This document shows positions 18,741 to 62,513 of a stretch of 62,513 nt of DNA, in pieces. Within the stretch, counting starts at the first letter, position 1, and every line of letters starts with the position of its first letter. This stretch comes from Thermodesulfovibrio sp. N1 (GTDB taxonomy: Bacteria > Nitrospirota > Thermodesulfovibrionia > Thermodesulfovibrionales > Thermodesulfovibrionaceae). The position numbers were made by a program, and so were the translations under genes. The notes under the pieces are model-generated. The model was given only the letters and a program-made list of their open reading frames with translations. It did no database searches and was not told the origin of the DNA. The DNA is taken from positions 1-62,513 of the forward strand of contig NZ_MAVV01000004.1 of assembly GCF_001707915.1 (NCBI RefSeq). Direction: 5' to 3'.

Positions 18741-20870
18741 TTATTTTATTATTGGTTCCATTTCTAAAGCGGGATGGTTAACTTTTGTGAGAAATTCTAA
18801 TAGGCATTCTATGTCTTCACAGACTGTTTCATCGGCAATTTTATCCATTAGATCAGATATGCCTTCTTCATCAACTCTTTTCTTGAAGCTCTCTTTTATT
18901 CTTTCTTTTAACTCCTTTGGCATCCATACAATTCTTCTTATTCCACCATCACCTTTAAGAAACTTTCTTGAAGTAATGTAATTTACTCCAACTCCCATAA
19001 ATCCCGGAGTTTGAACTCCACCACCTATCATACCTGCAAGGGTTGAAAACTTCATACCAATTGGTGTCATTCCACCATATCCTCTGTTTACAATCAATAC
19101 TCCGTTTGCCTCTGGAACTACTGCTACAATACATTCAAAGCATCCACAGGATGTCATAGGATTTTCCATTATTGAGTAAAGATTTATTGTCTCTGTTTCA
19201 CCGCCAGAGTGTTTTTTTACATATTCATCTATTCCACTGTATCTACCATAAACTGGATCAAGTAGCTCACCTTTTTCAACTGGCTGATTTCCACCTGTTG
19301 GTTCAATCTCATAGGCTGCCTTTGCATCAAGCCATGTAAAGGCTCCGCATAATCCAGGACGTTCTGGTGTTATCACACATACATGCTTTGGAGCAAAACT
19401 CTGACAGAGCAAACAGGAGTAAAATTTATCAACATCTTCATCTGTTAGCTTGGCAAGCCTTAAATCTCTCTCCTTGTACTGTTTTCTTGCCTCTTGTCTT
19501 AAATTAATAACATCTTCTTGATTAATATAAAGATAAACCTCAACTTTATCAACAATACTACGAAATCTTGCCTTTGTCATTGTGGTCAAGATTACTCCAA
19601 GATGTTCCAGGGTTATGCCAGCTTCCTTTGCTTTTTTGCTTATTCTTATCCAGTTTATGTCTCTCTGACCGATGTGCCAAAGTCCCTCTGCTTCATTTAT
19701 AAAAGTATGAATCTGACGCTCAATGACAGGTTCAAAATCCTTCTGCATCTTTTTACCAGCCACATTAATAATTATTCCGAGAGGCATCTGTCCACCCTTT
19801 TCATAACGAAATTGCCATTCTTTGCCAATTATGTGAATTTTTTCATCCTCTATTTCTGTTAAATCTTTCATTTGGACTAATTCAAAGGCTGGTGTTCTTT
19901 GTCCACCAAATTCAATAAATGTATCTTCCTTCCTTACTCTCTCTCCTTCAAAGGCTGGTCCATAGGAAACTGGAATTGGAGGTTTTTCAACAACTATCTT
20001 TAATCCCCTTGTCTCAATTGCTTTTTTAACAATTTTTGAATAGTCCTTTTCAGTGACTAAAAGGGGATATTCAGCAATCTCATTAATAATTATTTCTGGT
20101 AAATCCTGATCTATTATTACAGGGCAGGCAAAAAACATAGCTACTGAAGCAGTAGCCACTGCTAATTCATTAATTTGTCCAAAAGAGATTGCAAAGGCGT
20201 TAACTCTCTTTCTTACATAATCAATGATCGCATCTTTCTGTCCTGGAGTCTGACCTCCAAAAATAAGAGAAGCTCTTAAAGCCCAGTCTATTACATACAA
20301 TGTTTCTTCAATATTTTTGCCTACAGGAACAACATAGGCTTCAAAACCGAATCTTTCACCTGCTGTTATAAATTCTTCAGCAACAGGACCAATTAAAAAA
20401 GTAAGAATTTTCTTTTCCTGAAGCTCTTTCACAATTTTCAACAAATCATCTGGATTTAATTCCCCAAGTAAAACTGCCACTGCTGGAATTCTTCCATCAA
20501 CAAGCTGAACTCCAAGAGTTCTCTGAATTGTATCGCCAAGAAAACCATAGTAAGGAGTTTCTTTATTTTCCTGATTAATGTATTGAAGAGTAAGATAAAT
20601 TTCTCCAATATATAAATATGCAAGGCCAAGATTTTTTAAGTCATTCTGGTTTTTAAGTTTAGGTATGATTTCCTCAAGAAATTTTTTCATTTCATCAACT
20701 CTGTTGATTTTTATACCTTCAAGAGCATAAATTAAAGGAATTCCATAAGCAGTATCTGGAAGTTCAAAAGAAACTATACCTTTTTTTGAGACAATCTTTA
20801 AAAGATTGTTTATCTTGTCTGATAGATTATCTATAACTTTTCTTGTGATTTCTAAAATCTGATCTATCAA
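18741..20870 (-). CDS. acsB: Acetyl-CoA synthase (CODH/ACS beta subunit)
   Basis: This enzyme joins a corrinoid-bound methyl group, CO and CoA into acetyl-CoA at its nickel A-cluster (Wood-Ljungdahl pathway). The 709-residue protein is of full bacterial length, so it keeps the N-terminal CODH-contact domain missing in archaeal CdhC. All six A-cluster cysteines are present: Cys486, 489, 498 and 508 (CLLC...C...C) and Cys575/577 (SCGCF). The start codon is TTG at 20870, with AAGGAG upstream; it overlaps the acsC stop as TTGA. It follows acsC directly. CO dehydrogenase, the small corrinoid subunit and the methyltransferase genes are not in this window. Confidence 0.95.
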   Translation of the reverse strand: MIDQILEITRKVIDNLSDKINNLLKIVSKKGIVSFELPDTAYGIPLIYALEGIKINRVDEMKKFLEEIIPKLKNQNDLKNLGLAYLYIGEIYLTLQYINQENKETPYYGFLGDTIQRTLGVQLVDGRIPAVAVLLGELNPDDLLKIVKELQEKKILTFLIGPVAEEFITAGERFGFEAYVVPVGKNIEETLYVIDWALRASLIFGGQTPGQKDAIIDYVRKRVNAFAISFGQINELAVATASVAMFFACPVIIDQDLPEIIINEIAEYPLLVTEKDYSKIVKKAIETRGLKIVVEKPPIPVSYGPAFEGERVRKEDTFIEFGGQRTPAFELVQMKDLTEIEDEKIHIIGKEWQFRYEKGGQMPLGIIINVAGKKMQKDFEPVIERQIHTFINEAEGLWHIGQRDINWIRISKKAKEAGITLEHLGVILTTMTKARFRSIVDKVEVYLYINQEDVINLRQEARKQYKERDLRLAKLTDEDVDKFYSCLLCQSFAPKHVCVITPERPGLCGAFTWLDAKAAYEIEPTGGNQPVEKGELLDPVYGRYSGIDEYVKKHSGGETETINLYSIMENPMTSCGCFECIVAVVPEANGVLIVNRGYGGMTPIGMKFSTLAGMIGGGVQTPGFMGVGVNYITSRKFLKGDGGIRRIVWMPKELKERIKESFKKRVDEEGISDLMDKIADETVCEDIECLLEFLTKVNHPALEMEPIIK

Positions 20871-53524: not shown

Positions 53525-54927
53525 ATGGGATATGTACCAAGCCCGAGTTACAGCATAACAGTCCGGGTGGAAATTGAAAATCGTATTGGTATGTTTGCAA
53601 AAATTGCTTCAGCTATAAGTGGTGCTGGTGGAGATCTTGGTTCAATAGATATTGTCAAAGTTGAAAAGGGAAAGATAATCAGAGACATAACTGTAAATGC
53701 AAGGGATGAAGAACATGAAAAGAAAATAATAAGGGCTCTCAAACACATTGAAGGAGTAAAAATTCTAAGGGTTATGGATAGAACATTTTTAGTTCATGAA
53801 GGAGGTAAAATTGGAATATATAATAAAGTTAATGTAAAGGGAAGGGAAGACCTCTCCAGAGTTTACACCCCAGGTGTTGCCCCTGTGTGCCTTGATATTC
53901 AAAAAATCCAGAACATGTTTATAGGTATACAATCAAAGGAAACACAGTTGCAGTAATCACAGATGGAACAGCAGTCTTAGGACTCGGAAACATAGGTGCT
54001 GAAGCAGCAATGCCTGTTATGGAGGGAAAATGTATGCTTTTTAAAGAATTCGGAAGTGTTGATGCCTTCCCAATTGCCATAAAAACAACTGATGTTGATG
54101 AATTTGTTAATATCGTTAAGAAAATTTCAACTCCCTTTGGAGGAATTAACCTTGAAGACATCGCAGCGCCCCGTTGTTTTGAGATTGAAAAAAGACTAAG
54201 AGAAGAACTTAATATTCCAGTAATTCATGATGACCAGCACGGAACTGCTATTGTTGTTTTGGCTGCATTAATAAATGTAGGGAGGGTCTTAAAAAAAGAG
54301 ATTAAAGATTTTAAAATTGTAATTGCAGGTGCAGGTGCAGCTGGGACTGCTACAGCCTATATGCTTCTTGATTACGGAGTAAAAGATATCATTGTATGTG
54401 ACAGAGCGGGAACCCTTTATGAAGGAAGAAAAGAAGAAATAGACCCTTACAAAGAAGAACTCGCAAGAAAAACAAATCCAAGAAAAATTAAAGGTAAAAT
54501 ATCTGATGCCTTAGAAGGAGCAGATGTTTTTATCGGACTTTCAGCACCAAACATAGTAACTCCTGATGATATAAAGAAAATGAATCCTCCTCGGATTGTC
54601 TTTGCTCTTGCAAACCCAGACCCCGAAATAGCACCAGAACTTGCAATGCCTCTTGTAAGAATAATGGCAACAGGAAGGTCTGATTATCCAAATCAGATAA
54701 ACAATGTTTTAGCATTTCCTGGTTTATTCAAAGGCTTACTTGAAGTTAAAGCCAGAGGCGTTGACAAAGAAATATTCTTTGCTGCCTCACACGCAATTGC
54801 TAACATAATAAAAGATGAAGAGTTAAACGAAGATTACATTATTCCAAGTATATTTAATAAAAAAGTTGCTCAGGCAGTAGCTAATGCTGTTTCAGAAAAG
54901 GCTAAAAAGCTTAAATTAGCAAGATAG
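53525..54927 (+). pseudogene. NAD-dependent malic enzyme with N-terminal ACT domain (frameshift)
   Basis: This enzyme decarboxylates malate to pyruvate. The first 126 codons (53525-53902) encode an ACT regulatory domain (about 8-80) and the malic enzyme start (REDLSRVYTPGVAPVCLDIQK). The frame then stops at 53954-53956. Reading one base back from the A6 run at 53901-53906 restores the expected NPEHVYRYTIKGNTVAVITDG and continues to 54927 with the HDDQHGTA motif and AGAGAAGTA nucleotide site. Both halves are perfectly conserved, so this is a one-base deficit in a homopolymer: sequencing error, recent mutation or slippage. Restored length is about 468 residues. Confidence 0.88.
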
Positions 54928-58357: not shown

Positions 58358-58972
58358 TCAAAGCCCTGGATTGTCTCCAGGGCTTACTTTTATAATATTT
58401 TCAATCTCTTTAAAATTAATCCAGTGAAAACCTTCAACAACAAAAAATGAACAACCTTTAAAAAGGAGTTTCAAATCATAAATAGCCTTAAGTGGTAAGA
58501 TTATGTCTTCTCTGCCATGAATAAATGTTAGATTTTTAAAAATTTTATTTTGATTAATAAAATCAGAATTAATTAAAAATTCTAATCCTTCGATCATTGC
58601 CTTTTTATCAATATTTTCAGGGACATATGGTTTGGCTCCTGCATTTTTAAGAAATTCCTTTATCACAGTCTGTGGTTCTTTTTCCATTTTCTGAATCATT
58701 TTTCTTATAACTCTTGGATTAACATAATCTGTAAACTTTTTAAAGCCTGAAACTATAATGATTTTATCAAATCTTTCTGAAAAAAATTCAAGATTTTTAA
58801 GAACAATATGTCCACCTGTTGACCAGCCTATTAAAAGGCTCCCTGATTTATCCGTTAAAAAATTTAATATACCCTCTTCATCAAAATCAAGGAAGGGAGT
58901 AATAAAATGCCACTCCTCTGGAATATCCAAAGCCTGCCTAAATCCTGCCCAACCTGAAATAAAAAGATTCAT
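58358..58972 (-). CDS. Alpha/beta hydrolase, BioH-like
   Basis: This 204-residue alpha/beta hydrolase has nucleophile Ser51 in GWSTGG, a downstream acid in HGREDIILP and the catalytic His in EGFHWINF. The W-S-x-G-G elbow and small lid resemble pimeloyl-ACP methyl ester esterases (BioH/BioG), and bioF is 9 kb away, so a biotin role is possible but unproven. Its start overlaps the universal stress gene by 1 nt and its stop abuts the permease stop. Confidence 0.75.
   Translation of the reverse strand: MNLFISGWAGFRQALDIPEEWHFITPFLDFDEEGILNFLTDKSGSLLIGWSTGGHIVLKNLEFFSERFDKIIIVSGFKKFTDYVNPRVIRKMIQKMEKEPQTVIKEFLKNAGAKPYVPENIDKKAMIEGLEFLINSDFINQNKIFKNLTFIHGREDIILPLKAIYDLKLLFKGCSFFVVEGFHWINFKEIENIIKVSPGDNPGL
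58362..58384. terminator. Bidirectional terminator between permease and hydrolase
   Basis: AGCCCTGGA (58362-58370) pairs with TCCAGGGCT (58376-58384) around a 5 nt loop, followed on the plus strand by a T-rich tract. It starts 5 nt after the permease stop and also encodes the last residues of the convergent hydrolase. Confidence 0.7.
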
Positions 58973-59910
58973 TAAAGATTTATTATTGCTACTGTGGGCT
59001 CAAGACATTTGTTTATAACTGCTGAACTAACACCACCGAGAATAATATCTTTTAACTCAGAACGGCCCTTTCTTCCCATAATTATTAATTTATAATTTCC
59101 TTCACAAGCTTCTTTCAAAATTTCTTCTGCAGGTATACCAACATTTATTTTTGTTTGAAGAATATCCTCAGAAATTCCAGTGTTTAGGAATCTCATCTTC
59201 GCATTCAATAGAATTTCCTCTGCCTCTATTTCTGGATCTATTCCATGTTTAACCCTTTCCAGATAAAGAGAAATGTTTATTACCCTTAATAAAACAATCT
59301 TTTTTATACCTTTGACTAATTTTGCAAGACATACAGCGTGTTCAACAGCTTTCATTGAATACTCTGAACCATCAACAGGGACTAAAATATCTGAAATCGG
59401 AGTTTCCTCTGAAATTTTCTGTCCGACAAGATATAGATTTTGATTTAAAAGACCATAGACAAGTTTATTAGATATGCTACCTAAAATAATTTTTTTAAAT
59501 TTTGAAATACCCCGTCTTGCAATCATAATAGTCTGAAAGTTGTCCCTATGTGCTACTTCTAAAATTTTGTTTCCTGGGTCACCTTGTTCAACAATCTTTT
59601 TAACTTCTCCAGTAAATCCTTTATTTCTCAATATCTTTTCATAGTTATTCATAAAAGGAATGATATTATCATTAATGTACTTGTTTATAAGTTTCTCTGC
59701 AAAATCTCTATCTCTAATCATAACTAATCTAAAATCAGCATTTTTAAATTTTTCCATTAAATCATCCATTCTAATTATATGCAAGAAATTTAATTCAATC
59801 TGATTACTTATAAAAGAACTTATCAAATTTCCTACAAAATTAATTGCCCTTTTTGAATTTTCACTTTTGTCAATAGGTAATAGAATTTTTTTAAAATGTT
59901 GGCATAACAT
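58972..59910 (-). CDS. Tandem universal stress protein (two UspA domains)
   Basis: I chose the ATG at 59910 (312 aa, MLCQHFKKILLPIDKSENS), 1 nt after the upstream stop. The longer frame from 60039 only adds a shadow of the previous gene. Two Usp domains (about 1-150 and 155-312) each carry the start ILLPIDKS / ILVPVDGSEYS and an ATP-loop pattern GRKGRSELKDIILGGVS in the second and ARRGISKFKKIILGSIS in the first. The role is unknown; Usp proteins are often paired with ion transporters. Confidence 0.88.
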   Translation of the reverse strand: MLCQHFKKILLPIDKSENSKRAINFVGNLISSFISNQIELNFLHIIRMDDLMEKFKNADFRLVMIRDRDFAEKLINKYINDNIIPFMNNYEKILRNKGFTGEVKKIVEQGDPGNKILEVAHRDNFQTIMIARRGISKFKKIILGSISNKLVYGLLNQNLYLVGQKISEETPISDILVPVDGSEYSMKAVEHAVCLAKLVKGIKKIVLLRVINISLYLERVKHGIDPEIEAEEILLNAKMRFLNTGISEDILQTKINVGIPAEEILKEACEGNYKLIIMGRKGRSELKDIILGGVSSAVINKCLEPTVAIINL

Positions 59911-59911
59911 T

Positions 59912-60616
59912 TTATATTTCCAATATAATTTTTTTATTATTAAAAAATACATAGGAATCATGAGGAGAAATATAATTGAAATCTCCATAATGTATCTGGA
60001 TACCACAAAAGAGTGCGTAATCACTGATTGAAGGATCAACTATTTTTTTTGTTAACCCTTCAATTTCATATTTTGTTATTCTCATAACTATTTTAGTAAT
60101 ATTTAAAAGGTCTAAAGTTTCATCTTGTTTAATTTCTTTAAAAAGTCTTTCTTTAAGATAGCTCTGTTCCCTATCCTTTTCATAATTTAGTTCTAAATTT
60201 TTTTCAGAAATATCTTTTAATAAAGATATAAGAGCTCCACAGGCAGTTGAATTGTCTATTCCTCTTCTTTTACAAAAACCTAAACTCCCCTTTTCATCAA
60301 TTCCAATATGTGAAAAAACGTAAAAAATGTATCTTTCCTTTGTATTTAATCTTGGTGCATGGGAGAAAAAAGCTTTTAATCCTGTAAGCCCTGAAGTGAA
60401 TAAGCCTCCAAGACTTGAAAAATTAAAAACATCACCCCACCATCTTTTAATATCTGTTAGAATTGTTTGGGCAAGTTCATCTCTACAAGTACAAACAGAG
60501 GCAATTGTATTTTCATTATTAAAACCAAAATTATTCAAAATTTTATAGGTTTTTTCTATAAAATCATCTTGCCTCTGGCATTTTCCAAAAAACTTCTCTA
60601 AGTGTGAATTGTCCAT
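59912..60616 (-). CDS. LCIB/C-type (beta-class) carbonic anhydrase-like protein
   Basis: This is a predicted cytosolic protein of 234 residues from the ATG at 60616, which has GGAGGAGG 8 nt upstream. The ATG at 60634 lacks a site. The pattern STCRDE-like (VCTCRDEL), FxxSGLGGLFxxGxTG, SHAP, SHIGID and STACGALIS is what I recall for the LCIB/C carbonic anhydrase family of algae and bacteria. Predicted zinc ligands are Cys44, His103 and Cys126, with Asp46 as catalytic partner. It lies between an Mrp-type ion-translocating subunit and a universal stress protein. Activity is unproven; some LCIB proteins are inactive. Confidence 0.62.
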   Translation of the reverse strand: MDNSHLEKFFGKCQRQDDFIEKTYKILNNFGFNNENTIASVCTCRDELAQTILTDIKRWWGDVFNFSSLGGLFTSGLTGLKAFFSHAPRLNTKERYIFYVFSHIGIDEKGSLGFCKRRGIDNSTACGALISLLKDISEKNLELNYEKDREQSYLKERLFKEIKQDETLDLLNITKIVMRITKYEIEGLTKKIVDPSISDYALFCGIQIHYGDFNYISPHDSYVFFNNKKIILEI

Positions 60617-60652
60617 CCGATATTCCTCCTCCATAAATATTATAAATAAATA

Positions 60653-62448
60653 TTATAAAGCAAAATAAAAAATTATTAAACATATAGTTAAAAATATTGT
60701 AGCCCATAAAACTACAGTACCAATTGGAGTGGGCATACTGTGATCTCCTGGATAGGATTCTTTTTCATCCTTTAATCTTTTTTTGATTTCATCTCTTTTT
60801 TCAGGAATAGAAAAAGCAAGAAGTAAAGTATCTTTAGCTATTTTTATTGCAAAAACAGGATTTTTTGTAAACCATACAAGAAATGAAATAACTTTTTCAA
60901 AGATGAAATTGTTAATCTTTGCCATTAACTTTGCTCCCGGATTGTTTAATAACCACATAAATGCTTTTGCTCCCTTTCTGTAAAACCAGTCAGCATCAAG
61001 ATTTGTTGCTCTCATTTCTGCAGGAAAGATACCTGCTTTTACTAATAAAACATAAGCTAAAATTCCAAAAAGAAGAAGTTGACATGTAGTGACAATATGA
61101 TATCCTGTATAAGGTTTAAAATCAACAGGATAAGGAAGAAGACTGTATAATGGTTGAGGGAATACTCCAATAAAAATACACAAAAAAGCAGTTATTCCCA
61201 TAGCTAAAAGCATATGTAGAGGAGCCTCCTTTGTTCTTATTCCTGAATCATGAGCAAAAAAGGCATGATAGGGAACTTTAATACCTGCGTGCTCCAATAC
61301 CCCAACAGATGCGAAAAGAAGCATAATCCATATTACAGTCATTCCTCCCATTGCTGATGCCTCAACAACCATTGACTTACTCACAAAACCACTAAAAAGA
61401 GGAAAGGCTGAAATGGACATGGCACCTACAATACAGAATACGGTTGTCAAAGGCATACTTTTATAAAGACCTCCAAGGTCTGTACACTTAATTTTTCCTG
61501 TTCTGTATAAAACTGCTCCCATAGACATGACTAATAAAGCTTTATATAAAATATGACAAAACACATGGGAAAGCGTTCCATTTAAAGATAACTGAGTTCC
61601 TATGCCAACTCCTGTAACCATGTATCCAAGCTGATTAATAAGACTGTAGGAAAGAACCCTTCTAAGATTATTTTCAATAACAGCAAAGAATATTGGGAAA
61701 ACAGTCATTATAGCTCCTATCCATATTAAGATCTCAGCACCTGGGAATGCTCTAACAAGAACATAAATAGCGGTTTTAGTTGTAAATGTCCACATAAAGA
61801 CACCACCAGCTGGTGTTGTTTGAGGATAAGCATCGGGTATCCAGGCATGAAGTCCTGGAAAGCCACAGTTTATTCCAAAACCAATAAGTATCAACCAAGA
61901 ACTTAAACTTTTTAAACCTATGTAGCCGAATTCTATAGAACCTGTCTCATGAATATGCATAATCATCCCTATTAGAAGACACAAACCACCAAATAAATGA
62001 ACCAATAAATATCTTATTCCCGATCCAAAAGCCTCTTTTGATCTGTTTGCCCATACTAAAAATGTGGCACTTAATGCCATTATCTCCCAAAAGACAAAAA
62101 GTGTTAAAAAATCTCCTGCAAATACAACACCCAAAGCAGCACCACTATAACATATTGCTGCAATATGATGATGATTTTCTCTTACATGAAGAGAATATAA
62201 AATTGCAATTATACTTATAAGATGATAAATGTATCCGAAAAACATGCTAATTTTATCTGCTTTTATAAGGACGAGGTTATAGGAGAGAAAATTTATACTC
62301 CAGTGAACACCCTCAGGAATGTTTATAAGATTTATAAAACCAATAACAGGTATGATTAAAAGATAAATGTTTTTTAATTTTCCCTTTAAAAATGGGATTA
62401 ATATCGCGCCTAATATAAATACTAATGCAGGAGGAAAAAATTAATCAT
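60653..62448 (-). pseudogene. MrpD/NuoM-like proton-translocating membrane subunit (frameshift near N-terminus)
   Basis: A 530-codon frame from 62245 covers most of an Mrp antiporter subunit D/NuoM-like protein: VFWEIMALSA (TM5 Glu), FTTKTAIYV (TM7 Lys), CHILYKALL (TM8) and many helices. In-frame translation upstream continues as FFPPALVFILGAILIPFLKG with no start codon before a stop at 62441. An ATG at 62448 with AGGAGG at 62463-62458 reads MINF, then leaves frame. One extra base in the A6 run (62435-62440) joins them perfectly, giving about 598 residues. It is probably an assembly error or slippage site rather than true decay. Confidence 0.85.
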
Positions 62449-62512
62449 TATAGTAATCCTCCTTTCTTTTTACTATTGGTCTTAAAATATATTTGGCAAT
62501 TAAGATAAGAAA
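62441..62512 (-). CDS. C-terminal fragment of an upstream membrane protein
   Basis: An open frame enters from the right edge and ends at 62441, overlapping the MrpD-like start by 8 nt. The 23 visible residues are a hydrophobic stretch then a basic/acidic tail (RPIVKRKEDYYND). The overlap suggests another subunit of the same Mrp/NuoM-type complex. Too short to identify. Confidence 0.5.
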   Translation of the reverse strand, partial: FLILIAKYILRPIVKRKEDYYND

Positions 62513-62513
62513 T

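Follow-up and report, generated by a model that had tools for sequence, protein, structure and literature searches.

Does a carbonic anhydrase that is encoded beside a sodium/proton antiporter form an ion-driven pump with it, or does it serve another transport system? The question arises at the end of a stretch of 62,513 nucleotides from Thermodesulfovibrio sp. N1 (contig NZ_MAVV01000004.1; hereafter the window). There, a minus-strand gene encoding a carbonic anhydrase-like protein of 234 amino acids (CA) follows the gene of an MrpD/NuoM-type ion-pumping subunit (MrpD3). A sequence-only reading of the window had likened this pair to the DabAB complexes, which take up bicarbonate in an energy-coupled manner. 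Our analysis favors another answer. We propose, with moderate confidence, that a sodium-cycle cassette takes up inorganic carbon and that CA, as its soluble carbonic anhydrase, supplies CO2. Besides CA, its conserved parts would be a regulator of the GntR/UTRA type, a CBS-domain protein, a sodium:anion symporter of the DASS family and a Na+/H+ antiporter that can be exchanged, being a complete Mrp here and NhaD or a MamN-like permease in relatives. This cassette looks like an undescribed route by which such anaerobes import bicarbonate and make the CO2 that they fix.

An LCIB/C-type carbonic anhydrase in a complete Mrp operon

CA matches only one family profile, PF18599 (LCIB_C_CA; 167.4 bits for a cut-off of 25, E = 3.7e-49, residues 16-223), and its nearest solved structures by sequence are Chlamydomonas LCIB (5k5w) and LCIC. 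Residues C44, R45, D46, H103 and C126, aligned with those of CrLCIB, are invariant in 55 out of 55 CA homologues. An AlphaFold (AF2) model built from these homologues (mean pLDDT 94.4, pTM 0.92) has LCIB 5k5w as its best fold match in the PDB (TM 0.82, E = 1.5e-21), followed by LCIC, PtLCIB4 and then classical beta-carbonic anhydrases. By family, fold and site residues, the protein is a true LCIB/C-type beta-carbonic anhydrase, whose activity is predicted from sequence and model. The sequence-only reading was therefore right to place it in a family other than that of DabA and to propose a zinc site made of Cys44, Asp46, His103 and Cys126. No classical beta-carbonic anhydrase, DabA (PF10070) or SbtA was found in searches of the window genome. 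CA shares with the algal LCIB/LCIC proteins (5k5w, 5b5x, 5b5y) the profile, the fold, the Cys-Arg-Asp/His/Cys residues and the position of a soluble carbonic anhydrase beside bicarbonate transport. Unlike them, it is bacterial, short, only predicted to be active and encoded in a sodium-transporter operon of an anaerobic, heat-loving Wood-Ljungdahl host.

The operon comprises the following features:

62441 to 62513, minus strand: 3' end (23 codons plus stop) of an 81-amino-acid membrane protein encoded between MrpD2 and MrpD3; its frame, FLILIAKYILRPIVKRKEDYYND*, agrees with loci L148 and L067
60653 to 62448, minus strand: MrpD3, third MrpD/NuoM-type subunit (NF009310); stop-free frame from 62440
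59912 to 60616, minus strand: CA, LCIB/C-type beta-carbonic anhydrase (PF18599; C44, R45, D46, H103, C126)
58972 to 59910, minus strand: tandem universal stress protein (USP) of 312 amino acids with two Usp domains (PF00582, 120.8 bits, two stretches)
58358 to 58972, minus strand: alpha/beta-hydrolase-like (BioH-like) protein of 204 amino acids, last gene of the operon (TIGR01738, 26.7 bits, a weak match under the cut-off)
L148:15164-15409, on contig C10 of the same genome: remainder of the 81-amino-acid protein

The first four elements had been described in this order from the letters alone, and the profile matches (NF009310, PF18599, PF00582) confirm them, the "membrane-protein tail" being the C-terminus of the 81-amino-acid Mrp-operon protein. 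Gaps of at most 18 nt had also been claimed. This holds for CA and USP (1 nt) and for the 81-amino-acid gene and MrpD3, which overlap by 8 nt, but not for MrpD3 and CA. The most likely start of CA is the ATG at 60616, preceded by GGAGGAGG, which leaves a gap of 36 nt, whereas the alternative ATG at 60634 (18-nt gap) falls within the ribosome-binding site. USP and the hydrolase-like gene overlap by 1 nt.

MrpD3 matches NF009310 (PRK12668; 749 bits for a cut-off of 564) and Proton_antipo_M (PF00361). Position 62513 is a contig end, so the window cuts the operon, which runs on downstream to the hydrolase-like gene and upstream past 62513 into contig C10. The last 152 bases of C10 correspond to the end of the window contig (149/152, three single-base homopolymer gaps, no mismatch), and in a search of the host's own genome, the hits to MrpD2 and to a DASS protein lay close to the end of this contig. 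The overlap argues for joining the contigs, and the order of L148 joined to the window would then be GntR-CBS-DASS-MrpE-MrpG-MrpB-MrpC-MrpD1-MrpD2-81 aa-MrpD3-CA-USP-hydrolase-like. Genes for MrpF, an MbhD-like protein and a 94-amino-acid protein have no separate calls in L148 but are present at matching places in L067 and L152. In the relative L067/L090, the Mrp-CA-USP-hydrolase run is contiguous on a single contig. Hence MrpE, F, G, B, C and D-type subunits are all encoded, by overlap in L148 and contiguously in L067/L090. The Mrp operon is complete, MrpD3 being the third of its D-type subunits, which supports the claimed operon with Mrp subunits. As in other Mrp (Mnh) Na+/H+ antiporters, the E, F, G, B, C and D-type subunits are in order. 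Unlike them, this operon has three D-type subunits, small proteins of 81 and 94 amino acids (the former at the same position in the Mrp operon of relatives), GntR-CBS-DASS ahead and CA after. The same type of Mrp also occurs without CA in other loci.

The window also encodes the CdhC domain of acetyl-CoA synthase (19509-19976, minus strand, inside an open frame of 710 amino acids). Therefore, CO dehydrogenase/acetyl-CoA synthase (CODH/ACS) is encoded in the window and the host is a Wood-Ljungdahl organism, as had been supposed.

Carbonic anhydrase loci in relatives

PF18599 matches were found in 44 of the 296 Nitrospirota genomes surveyed with this profile, and a scan of named genomes gave 70 non-redundant CA loci. 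Neighbors were labeled by BLAST comparison with reference proteins of families assigned by Pfam and NCBIfam. Genes in relatives were called mechanically, and among the genomes are several metagenome-assembled genomes (MAGs) with frame errors. Antiporter names are based on family profiles: NhaD scores under the TIGR00775 cut-off and over that of NF038006, and the MamN-like permease scores under the MamN cut-off, which leaves its ion and substrate uncertain.

The commonest order in relatives is GntR-CBS-DASS-CA, followed by NhaD, by a CBS-like protein and a MamN-like permease, or by Mrp. An antiporter-type gene lies at most four same-strand genes from CA in 39 of the 70 loci (NhaD in 13, NhaD and MamN in 2, MamN-like in 13, Mrp in 11). 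Since this adjacency recurs in so many loci and with three antiporter families, it exceeds chance. Furthermore, the 40 labeled rows of the CA tree show five switches of partner between Mrp and NhaD/MamN, against a mean of 10.6 after shuffling. That one Na+/H+ antiporter family has repeatedly taken the place of another next to this CA is the strongest indication that they are functionally linked. The sodium or proton link expected from the window thus recurs in relatives; CA stands beside Mrp in 11 loci but is not tied to a NuoM-like subunit, its partner being more often NhaD or MamN-like.

The arrangement within Mrp loci also varies. The gene after CA encodes MrpE in L073, L103 and L112, and MrpF in L076. 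The order MrpD3-CA is limited to one Thermodesulfovibrio clade and an Actinomycetota MAG (L126), in which CBS-DASS is also present ahead of MrpE. The cassette is present in the cultured Thermodesulfobacterium thermophilum. USP keeps its place beside CA in the genus, and the hydrolase-like gene follows USP in the Mrp-linked Thermodesulfovibrio loci. Many cassettes have tandem Usp genes around them, as well as genes for histidine kinases and response regulators. In most of them, a phosphoenolpyruvate (PEP)-synthase-like gene (PPDK_N and PEP-utilizers domain, about 850 amino acids; L148:4002-6430, L051:4290-6839) is divergent from GntR; ahead of it lie genes for a histidine kinase and a response regulator.

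The anion transporters ahead of the carbonic anhydrase

The DASS homologue of L051 matches TIGR00785 (207.9 bits for a cut-off of 198.6), and the copy of the window genome matches VcINDY structures. They belong to two subgroups, called here DASS1 (cassette DASS) and DASS2 (window genome). A search with the cassette DASS found a DASS1 copy of at least 64% identity in 24 genomes of the host class. Among 117 genomes of this class, 21 have both DASS1 and CA, 3 have DASS1 only, 5 have CA only and 88 have neither (Fisher p = 1.5e-15, a value inflated by the relatedness of the genomes).

In VcINDY, two SNT motifs bind carboxylates. Both are substituted in every cassette DASS1 copy (AHT and MNV), and DASS1 is therefore unlikely to be an ordinary dicarboxylate carrier. 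The window-genome DASS carries HDA and SNS at these places. An N-terminal cytosolic motif, GLPxPPxEIxVA (residues ~5-25), is common to both subgroups and might be where the CBS protein docks.

In two Myxococcota genomes, another transporter stands directly ahead of CA: an SLC4-type HCO3- transporter (PF00955, 591 bits) in a Polyangiaceae genome (L141:5616-7733) and a SulP permease in a Kofleriaceae genome (L122:6784-8829), each fused to a PTS_EIIA_2 domain. In some Nitrospira, the gene at this place encodes a Na+/Ca2+-exchanger-like protein. Though few loci are involved, these neighbors point to bicarbonate and sodium.

A candidate sodium cycle for bicarbonate uptake

In the cycle that we propose, the DASS symporter would import HCO3-, its proposed substrate, together with Na+, and Mrp would move Na+ out and H+ in. 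CA would then convert HCO3- and H+ into CO2 and H2O, feeding CODH/ACS, formate dehydrogenase and other CO2-using enzymes. The proton-motive force would pay for net uptake, the H+ entering through Mrp being the H+ used by CA, and no direct complex between CA and MrpD3 would be necessary. Such a cycle would benefit the CO2-using steps of the Wood-Ljungdahl pathway where bicarbonate is available but CO2 is scarce.

The proposed sodium-coupled bicarbonate symport, with Na+ extruded by an antiporter, resembles cyanobacterial SbtA or BicA working with Na+/H+ antiporters. However, the symporter is here of the DASS/SLC13 type, symporter, antiporter and CA are encoded in one operon, and the carbon would be destined for CODH/ACS as CO2 instead of being stored as HCO3- for carboxysomes. 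The cassette is a concrete candidate that combines an algal-type carbonic anhydrase, a swappable Na+/H+ antiporter and a symporter of the DASS type whose substrate motifs are unusual. The LCIB family would also gain a partner of the sodium-cycle kind; its algal members, which have a central part in concentrating CO2, have proved hard to assay. We sought a link between LCIB-type carbonic anhydrases and Mrp in the literature and found none; a 2024 survey of dissolved inorganic carbon mentions neither LCIB nor Mrp.

Several observations weigh against this proposal. We know of no DASS protein that carries bicarbonate, and the window-genome DASS belongs to a different subgroup, 28% identical to DASS1. 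The SLC4 and SulP neighbors are known from one locus each. Two Thermodesulfovibrio relatives (L067/L090 and L074) have no DASS in the operon, which reads GntR-CBS-Mrp-CA or CBS-Mrp-CA. Conversely, the three genomes with DASS1 only have a cassette with a MamN-like gene but no CA, and GntR-CBS-DASS2-Mrp units also occur without CA, which is therefore an optional member. Moreover, the nearest structure, Chlamydomonas LCIB, has no quantified carbonic anhydrase activity in vitro, whereas diatom homologues are active (PMC9614477).

Other explanations of the locus

The locus could instead serve sodium and pH homeostasis, an explanation that we regard as rather unlikely. Mrp, NhaD or the MamN-like permease would acidify the cytoplasm by Na+/H+ exchange under alkaline or sodium stress, CA would speed the CO2/HCO3- buffer, the Usp and CBS proteins would signal stress or energy state, and anion uptake would be secondary. 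The antiporter is indeed the most persistent partner, kept even where DASS is lost, Mrp is known for tolerance of alkaline pH and sodium (PMC12382314), and the stress and signaling genes around many cassettes fit this role. However, it leaves unexplained both the tight co-occurrence of DASS1 and CA and the SLC4 and SulP transporters in the DASS slot.

It is improbable that the symporter imports sulfate or a dicarboxylate, with CA giving bicarbonate for carboxylation or removing CO2 and the antiporter only restoring the Na+ gradient. The hosts are mostly sulfate reducers, in which DASS transporters are candidate sulfate carriers (PMC5840216), and the PEP-synthase-like gene is transcribed divergently beside the regulator. 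Nevertheless, DASS1 is absent from most genomes of the class and tracks CA, and both of its SNT motifs are altered. Besides, in a published survey, T. yellowstonii was scored as having no sulfate transporter of the DASS family, and its CysP homologue was grouped with the known sulfate carrier (PMC5840216).

The DabAB-like pump that was first suggested, in which CA would dock on MrpD3 and CO2 hydration or dehydration would be mechanically coupled to its ion flow, is very improbable. In DAB2, DabA combines two beta-carbonic anhydrase-like domains with a large N-terminal domain and with a membrane finger that rests on the NuoL-like DabB (PMC13144422). The locus resembles DAB complexes (DabA, PF10070, and DabB) in the linkage of a beta-carbonic anhydrase-like gene to that of a NuoL/MrpD-type subunit. 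However, CA is a bare domain of another family that lacks the extra N-terminal domain and the membrane finger, and its partner is not a dedicated DabB but one subunit of a complete Mrp. The absence of PF10070 from the window genome and the non-conserved partner rule out membership in the DabAB family. Since CA stands with NhaD or a MamN-like permease and DASS in most relatives, no NuoL-like subunit is obligatory. Elsewhere CA precedes MrpE, and MrpD3 is found in complete Mrp operons without CA and in a complex-I-like cluster. A dedicated CA-NuoM pair is thus ruled out as a general rule, and the DabAB analogy is not supported.

Within the Thermodesulfovibrio lineage itself, we likewise give little credence to CA being a working part of Mrp, placed on MrpD3 and coupling CO2/HCO3- interconversion directly to ion flow. 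MrpD3 directly adjoins CA in this clade and in the Actinomycetota MAG, some members keep CBS-Mrp-CA after the loss of DASS, and the faster evolution of CA, with its active site kept, could reflect a new interface. If true, this would be an independently evolved vectorial carbonic anhydrase made from an LCIB-type enzyme and a whole Mrp, able to run without DASS.

Evolution of the carbonic anhydrase and neighboring sequences

In the Mrp-linked Thermodesulfovibrio clade, CA evolves faster than its neighbors: between the window and L090, it is 45% identical and MrpD3 74%. Its dN/dS is 0.14-0.32 in this clade versus 0.03-0.05 in MamN-linked relatives, dS being often saturated. The invariant catalytic residues and these dN/dS values argue against loss of function, and CA is retained under weaker constraint. 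In genome G124, a fragment of 53 amino acids (L070:6773-6934) resembles the remnant of a decayed LCIB-type carbonic anhydrase gene; it lies on the same strand as an Mrp-type cluster, about 160 bp upstream.

In the window genome, a complex-I-like cluster with a molybdopterin oxidoreductase subunit (L149; C8, 27678-41656) repeats the gene order of the CA-linked Mrp operon with a MrpD2-type, a 70-amino-acid and a MrpD3-type subunit, after which come two more NuoM/N-like genes. In L123, NuoL/M/N genes near CA were ruled out as its partners, as they belong to a separate complex I cluster.

The start of MrpD3 (62448) is frameshifted in the window contig at a run of 6 T. Since the overlapping contig C10 reads 7 T, which restores the frame (M-I-N-F-F-P-P-A-L-V), this is a homopolymer error at a contig end, and a real truncation of the NuoM gene is ruled out. 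The GntR gene on C10 is also broken by a frameshift. A malic-enzyme-like gene with an N-terminal ACT-like part (53525-54927, plus strand) is split into frames 53525-53956 and 54010-54927; as GntR and PPDK_N on C10 are split too, this suggests that homopolymer errors are frequent in the assembly.

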